A DNA stretch of 36,687 bases from an uncultured PS1 clade bacterium (GTDB lineage Bacteria; Pseudomonadota; Alphaproteobacteria; MED-G09): positions 1-36,687 of the forward strand of contig CACLNZ010000010.1 in the NCBI GenBank assembly GCA_902608415.1, given 5' to 3'. The notes beneath the pieces are model-generated. The model was not told the DNA's origin, searched no databases, and saw only the letters and a program-made list of their open reading frames with translations. Below are positions 3,831-33,028 of this stretch, one piece after another. Every line of letters starts with the position of its first letter. Position 1 is the stretch's first letter. A program made the position numbers and the translations under genes.

Positions 3831-3836
3831 TTTTTC

Positions 3837-3897
3837 CTCTCTTTAGTGCTTTAAGTAAATCTAGGGCGCACAATCTGAACATCAAATACCCAGCCTT
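3837..3897 (-). promoter_or_regulatory. putative SAM-II/SAM-V-like riboswitch in the ompW leader
   Basis: Read on the minus strand, the leader runs CTGGG, then TATTTGAT, a loop ending in TTGTGC, then CGCCCTAG, then CTTAAAGCACTAAAGAGAGG directly before the ATG. GGG (3891-3889) can pair with CCC (3866-3864), extended by CT/AG across a bulge. GTGC in the loop (3871-3868) can pair with GCAC (3849-3846), forming an H-type pseudoknot. The A-rich TTAAA and CTAAA elements beside the Shine-Dalgarno sequence match the general layout I remember for SAM-II and SAM-V aptamers, known from alphaproteobacteria and marine bacteria. Ligand binding would hide the ribosome binding site. Assignment is from memory of the consensus, not from a covariance search. 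Confidence 0.55.
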
Positions 3898-3917
3898 AAG
3901 TGGCCAGCTCTGTTAAA

Positions 3918-4015
3918 ATTAAGAAAATAAATGAGACCTAATTTTTGCCATTTGGCCGCATATATTACCACCTTCGCACGGTATGCAGGTTGGCAGGGAT
4001 AATCCCTTTCTTAAT
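3918..4015 (-). ncRNA. unidentified structured RNA element
   Basis: A perfect 9-bp inverted repeat (ATTAAGAAA at 3918-3926, TTTCTTAAT at 4007-4015) encloses a relatively GC-rich interior. Inside are a small hairpin GGGATAATCCC (3996-4006) and a longer imperfect hairpin TGCC...GCATA...TATGC...GGCA (about 3946-3995). It would fold on either strand. Minus is preferred because a promoter-like pair (4027-4054) would start transcription just before it, placing it upstream of the SAM-like riboswitch and ompW. It does not match tRNA, SRP RNA, tmRNA, 6S RNA or TPP signatures that I know. Confidence 0.4.
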
Positions 4016-4026
4016 GCATCTTGATA

Positions 4027-31738: not shown

Positions 31739-32782
31739 CTAAGAGGCGATATTACCATGCTTTTGAAAGGTTTTTTCAATGTCATTCTCTACTTCTTCTG
31801 TCAAATTAACTTCAATTGATGTTACAGCAAGTTTAAGTTGTTCCATGCTTGTTGCACCGATTATATTTGAAGTTACAAAAGGTCTGGTTGTAACAAACTG
31901 GTTTGCCAATTGTGATGGATCAATATTATATTTTTTAGCAATATTAAGGTAAGATTCAATTGCTTCCTCGCTTCCTGCTCCTTCATATCTTTGAAGTCGA
32001 TCAAATAATTCCTTTCTTGATCCTTTTGGCAAATTTCCATTTTGATATTTTCCAGTAAGATAACCTTGAGCAAGAGGTGAGTATGCCAAAAGTCCGACAT
32101 TTTCTCTAAAAGCTATTTCTGAGCCTCCAAATTCAAATATCCTATTAAGTAAATTATAAGCATTTTGAATAGATTGCATCTTAGGTAAATTTTTATCTTT
32201 AGATTGATGAACAAACTCCATTGTTCCCCAGGGAGTTTCATTAGATAATCCAATATTCCTAATTTTACCTATCTTAATTAGTTCAGAAAGCGCATCTAAA
32301 ATAGATTCAATAGAATTAGTTTCTCCTTCGATATGTTGATAATTTATAGAACCACCAAAAAGACTCATTGGTCTGTCTGGCCAGTGAAGTTGATACAAAT
32401 CAATATAATCTGTTTGCAATCTTTCTAGGCTTTTATCAACTGCTTCGAAGATTTGTTTTTTGGTTTGTTCAGTTGGTGTTTCATCATCCCGAAGCCAAGT
32501 GAAAGGAGCTCTCCCACAAACCTTAGTAGCTAGAATAACTTTATCTCTATTTTTTCTTTCATTGAACCAATTGCCAATAATTTTTTCCGTTGATCCCTGA
32601 GTTTCTTTTTTAGGAGGAACTGCGTACATTTCAGCTGTATCAAAGAAGTTTATGCCCATATCAAAAGCATAATCCATCTGTTCAAATCCTTCATCTTGAG
32701 TGTTTTGTTGTCCCCATGTCATTGTACCAAGGCATATTGCGCTTACTTCAATATCAGTAGTACCTAATTTTCTTTTTTCCAT
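31739..32782 (-). CDS. tas: Tas-like aldo/keto reductase
   Basis: NADP-dependent aldo/keto reductase with a TIM-barrel fold, 347 residues. It closely resembles E. coli Tas: LGTMTWGQQN, NFFDTAEMYAVPPKKETQGSTE (catalytic Tyr), ILATKVCG (catalytic Lys), LYQLHWPDRP (catalytic His), GLSNETPWG, and NIIGATSMEQLK. The ORF track starts 47 codons earlier at 32923, but that stretch is a chance open frame; ATG 32782 (MEKRKLGTTDIEVS) has GGAGGG 5 nt upstream. The substrate in vivo is unknown. The leader has a notable stem-loop complementary to this ribosome binding site. It ends 3 bp from the convergent PQQ dehydrogenase. Confidence 0.92.
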   Translation of the reverse strand: MEKRKLGTTDIEVSAICLGTMTWGQQNTQDEGFEQMDYAFDMGINFFDTAEMYAVPPKKETQGSTEKIIGNWFNERKNRDKVILATKVCGRAPFTWLRDDETPTEQTKKQIFEAVDKSLERLQTDYIDLYQLHWPDRPMSLFGGSINYQHIEGETNSIESILDALSELIKIGKIRNIGLSNETPWGTMEFVHQSKDKNLPKMQSIQNAYNLLNRIFEFGGSEIAFRENVGLLAYSPLAQGYLTGKYQNGNLPKGSRKELFDRLQRYEGAGSEEAIESYLNIAKKYNIDPSQLANQFVTTRPFVTSNIIGATSMEQLKLAVTSIEVNLTEEVENDIEKTFQKHGNIAS

Positions 32783-32850
32783 TTTTCCCTCCAAAAAAAT
32801 ACAAAAAAAGAACATGCTACAAATGAAAAATAAATACAAGTAAACTTTTA

Positions 32851-32898
32851 AGCGACCTAAGCTGGAGGGAGTGATGGATTGTAATTGCTTAGGTCGCT
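32851..32898 (-). promoter_or_regulatory. 12-bp stem-loop with anti-Shine-Dalgarno loop in the tas leader
   Basis: AGCGACCTAAGC (32851-32862) and GCTTAGGTCGCT (32887-32898) are perfect inverted copies around a 24-nt loop. Transcribed on the minus strand, the loop contains TCCCTCCA (32870-32863), exactly complementary to the TGGAGGGA that forms the tas ribosome binding site (32793-32786). It lies between tRNA-Arg and tas. No T-run follows on either strand within a few bases, so it is not a classical terminator. It could act in cis on tas or in trans as a small RNA. Confidence 0.5.
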
Positions 32899-32951
32899 CT
32901 ATTAATATGGTTATTAATAACATTTTTTTAGTGGGGCAGAGTGACGCATTA

Positions 32952-33028
32952 TGGCGATCCCGATAGGATTCGAACCTATGACCTTCAGATTAGGAATCTG
33001 ACGCTCTATCCTGCTGAGCTACGGGACC
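32952..33028 (-). tRNA. tRNA-Arg(CCT)
   Basis: On the minus strand, 77 nt from GGTCCCGTAGCTCAGCAGG to CGGGATCGCCA. The anticodon arm CAGA-TTCCTAA-TCTG gives anticodon CCT (Arg, codon AGG). The T arm TAGGTTCGAATCCTA is perfect, and CCA is encoded. The acceptor stem has a single G-U pair. Confidence 0.96.

Follow-up and report, generated by a model that had tools for sequence, protein, structure and literature searches.

Several described systems offer points of comparison for a hairpin loop that resembles the anti-Shine-Dalgarno (anti-SD) sequence. In SD-sequestering pseudoknot leaders of bacterial mRNAs, a hairpin loop is complementary to the downstream SD. The 3'ETS-leuZ of E. coli is a regulatory spacer derived from a tRNA precursor that sponges small RNAs (sRNAs). 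To our knowledge, little RNA regulation has been described in small-genome ocean bacteria, and we found none on record for the PS1 clade. In Alphaproteobacteria, SmelA075 and SmelA099 (Rhizobiales), CcsR (Rhodobacter) and the 'cuckoo RNA' family carry anti-SD loops that have been proposed to block the ribosome sites of several mRNAs; members of the cuckoo/CcsR/SmelA075 family have two to four hairpins with the motif CCUCCUCCC, CcsR has a DUF1127 partner gene, and the family is often, not always, associated with DUF1127 (CIN1 locus) (PMC3927594; PMC10253847). Among rhizobial sRNAs, examples are documented in which the loop carries CCUCCUCCC and the stem varies (PMC3927594). The cuckoo/CcsR/SmelA075 family is further marked by several copies per genome and by expression as processed small RNAs induced by stress.

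The hairpin analysed here lies between tRNA-Arg and the tas-like gene in a 36,687-nt stretch of DNA (the window), an alphaproteobacterial contig of the PS1 clade (OCS116), namely C10 of a 1.1-Mb genome (G000) that is 83% complete. It shares with the cuckoo/CcsR/SmelA075 family a hairpin loop with an anti-SD motif (CUCCCUCC), and the likeness to alphaproteobacterial CCUCC-loop sRNAs noticed in the initial annotation is supported by an anti-SD loop whose core is invariant in seven genomes. It differs from the family in motif (AUCACUCCCUCC, core AUCACUCCCUC, and CUCCCC in a second hairpin, upstream of a response-regulator gene), in having one anti-SD hairpin, and in adjoining aldo/keto reductase and Rieske/ring-hydroxylase protein genes in a tRNA/tas context. 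Because motif, hairpin number and DUF1127 neighbour all differ, we do not file the tas hairpin as a member of the family, although it would work like one. As with 3'ETS-leuZ, a putative regulatory RNA stands beside a tRNA and is possibly released by tRNA processing; unlike 3'ETS-leuZ, which sponges sRNAs, the tas hairpin has a loop that mimics the anti-SD. As in SD-sequestering pseudoknot leaders, the loop is complementary to the SD of the downstream gene (8 + 4 bp) with a feasible H-type geometry; unlike in those leaders, loop and SD do not covary here, and the tas leaders of sister genera lack the element. The tas hairpin probably adds a new case, restricted to one lineage, to a kind of regulatory RNA already known, and probably dampens translation of tas or other genes. 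With this conserved hairpin of the tRNA/tas unit and its covarying sister upstream of a response-regulator gene, the use of anti-SD loops would reach past Rhizobiales and Rhodobacterales, and two defined RNAs are gained for searching in marine metatranscriptomes.

Structure, conservation and strand bias of the hairpin

On the minus strand the order of elements is a Rieske protein gene, tRNA-Arg(CCU), a 53-nt trailer, the hairpin, 57 nt, the SD and tas, with the following features:

32952..33028, minus strand: tRNA-Arg(CCU), upstream of the hairpin (ARAGORN and Rfam)
32899..32951, minus strand: tRNA trailer, with conserved ATGCGTCACTCTGCC adjoining the tRNA end (12 of 15 columns invariant); may pair with 32809-32850
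32851..32898, minus strand: RNA hairpin, 12-bp stem and 24-nt loop
32898-32887, minus strand: 5' arm of the hairpin, AGCGACCTAAGC
32886-32863, minus strand: hairpin loop, AATTACAATCCATCACTCCCTCCA
32863..32874, minus strand: 3' half of the loop, (A)TCACTCCCTCCA, with the anti-SD motif
32870-32863, minus strand: anti-SD motif in the loop, UCCCUCCA, an 8-nt match to the tas ribosome site
32862-32851, minus strand: 3' arm of the hairpin, GCTTAGGTCGCT
32809..32850, minus strand: conserved 42-nt block in the interval between hairpin and SD (31 of 42 columns invariant)
32793-32786, minus strand: tas SD, UGGAGGGA
32780..32793, minus strand: tas translation initiation region, UGGAGGGAAAAAUG, complementary to the loop
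32782-32780, minus strand: tas ATG
31739..32782, minus strand: tas-like gene, aldo/keto reductase of 347 aa (Pfam PF00248, 6.5e-69)

The best NCBIfam match of tas is an NADP(H)-dependent aldo-keto reductase, at a score under that model's cut-off.

The elements first described for this hairpin, namely a perfect 12-bp stem, a 24-nt loop and an 8-nt complement of the tas SD about 70 nt away, were all borne out by the sequence (loop-to-SD spacing, 70 nt), and its position 3' of tRNA-Arg was confirmed, at 53 nt and on the same strand. Folding of 32951-32808 gave z = -3.55, and none of 200 shuffles was equally stable. Perfect intergenic stems of at least 10 bp (at least 4 G/C) with a loop of at least 9 nt number only three in a 422-kb sample of this genome; the tas hairpin is one of the three, and two of the three have an anti-SD loop. 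We rejected a dispersed repeat, since the genome has a single copy, and a viral carrier, since the exact stem pattern had no match in viral contigs.

A BLAST search over 96 genomes recovered the hairpin from each of the genus's seven genomes, every time in the interval from tRNA-Arg to tas, and because it is conserved in all seven we regard it as more than chance. The loop core AUCACUCCCUC (ATCACTCCCTC in the alignment) is invariant in 11 of 11 columns, while the 5' half of the loop is invariant in 4 of 11, like the four-fold sites of tas that served as neutral reference (34/104, 33%). With independent sites, the neutral rate would yield eleven invariant columns in a row about 5 times in a million, a figure that, given shared ancestry, is a rough guide only. 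In the stem, 76 of 77 cells are paired (98.7%; 11 pairs common to all seven genomes). In nine stem cells a G-U stands in place of G-C or A-U when the minus strand is read; on the plus strand these would be A-C mismatches. One cell shows the reverse. Because this variation amounts to about six substitutions, all one-sided, with no double compensatory change among the seven genomes, we take the strand signal as suggestive but not as proof. The comparison with relatives proposed in the initial annotation thus bore out conservation of stem and loop, but gave neither loop/SD compensation nor double stem changes. Taken together, the alignments support an RNA hairpin that is real and kept by selection, encoded on the strand of tas and the tRNA and bearing an anti-SD loop.

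The sequences on both sides of the hairpin are also conserved. The 42-nt block between hairpin and SD may be the tas promoter or the 3' side of an outer stem; a search for a sigma-70 promoter in it by 6-mer enrichment gave no usable motif. An outer stem drawn from the blocks on either side of the hairpin shows two double changes, and 7 of 500 shuffles were as good, a result that hints that the flanking blocks may pair around the hairpin. No intrinsic (Rho-independent) terminator was found, the stem having no following U-run, and for this reason a discrete sRNA end is not evident. As a separate observation, the 15-nt block ATGCGTCACTCTGCC directly behind the tRNA end (window 32935-32949, minus strand) is conserved in six of the seven congeneric genomes and looks like the loop motif (TCACTC).

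Distribution and origin

A covariance model detected no homologue in 11 other family genomes (sister genera) or in a sample of 385 Alphaproteobacteria, and Rfam 15 gave no match at gathering score over the hairpin, a lax search returning chance-level matches only. Since the hairpin is absent from the sister genera, from the 385 genomes of the class and from Rfam, it looks like a gain in one genus. Weaker matches were examined and discarded: a second covariance match in the same genome (G000:C11, E 0.013) is a different hairpin without a C-rich loop, and weak BLAST matches in other Alphaproteobacteria are coding-like sequence or lack the hairpin. In genus g2 a YgjP-like metallopeptidase gene (Pfam PF01863) lies between tRNA-Arg and tas, and in genus g3 tas follows the tRNA after 64 nt, in both cases without the hairpin. 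In one g2 genome (G017) the YgjP-like gene has in-frame stops by eye.

The tRNA-Arg and tas genes are co-directional neighbours in 17 of 18 family genomes, a count that includes one genome (G012) in which they lie on separate short contigs and their order was deduced; the exception, G010, is rearranged. The kept order fits a shared transcript, and release of the hairpin from the tRNA precursor is possible, given the common strand, the absence of a visible terminator and the order kept in 17 of 18 genomes. Hfq was found in 14 of the 18 family genomes.

Pairing of the loop and competing readings

The segment CCAUCACUCCCUCC of the loop is the exact complement of the generic ribosome site GGAGGGAGTGATGG. 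The pairing with tas is longer than 8 nt: CCAU of the loop also matches AUGG at the start codon across a 3x3 internal loop, and the resulting 8 + 4 bp duplex has an energy of -20.3 kcal/mol, compared with -17.7 to -18.9 kcal/mol in five relatives and a weakened -12.9 in G002. When the loop of each genome was ranked by duplex energy against sampled initiation regions of that genome (about a third of G000 and of G005, a fifth of G002), tas ranked 2/396 in G000, 6/359 in G005 and 21/224 in G002, and the single site that outranks it in G000, inside an apparent tRNA gene, is unlikely to be a start site. Among orthologue pairs tas ranked 1/62. Part of this rank arises because the tas SD is itself strong (SD strength ranks 26, 20 and 7 in the three genomes). 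With the invariant core alone, tas ranks 24/396, 27/359 and 13/224; the invariant CAC of the loop is unpaired with tas, and the bases under the strongest constraint in the loop differ from those that pair with tas. The loop of G002 has changed at tas-pairing positions with the SD unchanged, the SD of G004 has changed with the loop unchanged, and no loop/SD compensation was seen among the relatives. The genome holds about 35 GGAGGG-N3-9-ATG sites, vs. 12 for the reversed control, and such a loop therefore has many possible partners. The complement of 14 nt of the loop has no other exact match anywhere in the genome; a single near match (12/14) falls at a start codon, that of an SDR gene.

We favour, with a probability of about one half, a regulatory role for the hairpin, as an RNA specific to this genus that is encoded between tRNA-Arg(CCU) and tas on their strand and whose anti-SD loop acts on several ribosome sites. 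The hairpin would most likely be made within the tRNA-Arg/tas transcript, or as a short RNA cut from that transcript; the stem would keep the loop open, and the core would pair with mRNA ribosome-binding sites (GGAGGG...AUG), blocking ribosome entry and so repressing translation. The tas mRNA is probably one target, in cis or in trans, and the loop looks tuned to more than tas. We favour an anti-SD-loop RNA because there is no loop/SD compensation, because the constrained bases miss tas and because the loop of the response-regulator hairpin described below shows no preference for its own SD. A switch confined to the tas leader, in which an H-type pseudoknot joins the loop to the SD and start codon, 70 nt further down, and silences tas until a signal opens it, is a possibility that we hold doubtful. 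Such a pseudoknot was proposed in the initial annotation, and several observations agree with it: the geometry is feasible, with zero bases between loop helix and stem, so that the two can stack; the energy is largely kept in five relatives; tas stands near the top of the sampled ribosome sites in two genomes; and hairpin and tas share a strand, with no terminator between them. The complementarity and these high ranks hint at a pseudoknot, but the third genome does not follow, the G002 loop having lost its pairing with no answering change in the SD, and the unpaired CAC and the low core-only ranks also speak against a dedicated switch. Moreover, tas has no such element upstream in two sister genera, and the downstream conserved block may be the tas promoter, which would leave the hairpin outside the tas mRNA.

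A purely structural role seems to us improbable, whether in 3' processing or stability of the tRNA-Arg precursor or as a weak terminator or attenuator, with the loop conserved for the sake of a protein and not of base pairing. The distance of 53 nt from the tRNA, the stable stem and the conserved trailer and downstream blocks, which may pair around the hairpin, would suit such a role, but the strong constraint falls in the loop and not just in the stem, the stem is not followed by a U-run, and the same tRNA in sister genera has no such hairpin. Very improbable, too, is a plus-strand gene of 25 codons (GGAGGGAGTGATGG...) for which the conserved bases would serve as ribosome site and start codon. 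That frame has a good SD and ATG and is open in five of seven genomes; it is, however, broken by a deletion in G004 and by loss of the start and a frameshift in G002, its product has no Pfam match, and the stem variants keep their pairing when read on the minus strand but lose it when read on the plus. We rejected this micro-ORF on the broken frames and the stem variants.

Other hairpins with C-rich loops

In about a third of the genome we found two further anti-SD-loop hairpins beside the tas hairpin. The first of these, recovered in a scan of the sampled DNA, has an 18-bp stem and the loop UAAAAGCCUCCCCCAUC, and lies upstream of an OmpR-type response-regulator gene:

L121:9449-9501 (G000 contig C4), sense strand of the regulator: response-regulator hairpin, with orthologues in L175-L189

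This hairpin stands before the gene in all 15 family genomes examined at the leader, in each case with the stem ending 53-55 nt before the ATG and with CUCCCC in the loop. The stems differ between genera, with compensatory changes (strong covariation), and on the sense strand the 15 pairs comprise 206 Watson-Crick, 15 G-U and 1 A-C cells; Rfam gave no match. The covariation argues firmly for a structured RNA, and because the pairing is that of the sense strand the hairpin would be transcribed with the regulator. Its loop pairs with its own SD no better than with the SDs of other genomes, and because of this lack of preference a loop-to-own-SD switch is not a general rule for such hairpins. A wider pattern can be put forward tentatively, and we consider it unlikely on the present comparison: that unrelated single sense-strand hairpins shortly upstream of start codons (tas, 69 nt; response regulator, 53-55 nt), sharing only a C-rich anti-SD loop, provide the PS1 family with a distributed damping of translation by ribosome-site mimicry, and are neither dedicated cis switches nor multi-hairpin cuckoo sRNAs.

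The other hairpin with a C-rich loop (ATCCTTCCCCCTCCCAACCCTTCAA; L113, G000 contig C2 from 48830, plus strand) lies about 30 nt before a 53-codon ORF that has no Pfam match; it has no good match in the sampled relatives and was seen only in G000. Elsewhere in the window, at 3833-4022 on the minus strand, tandem SAM-I/IV and SAM-V riboswitches precede one gene, the SAM-V match lying barely above the gathering score.
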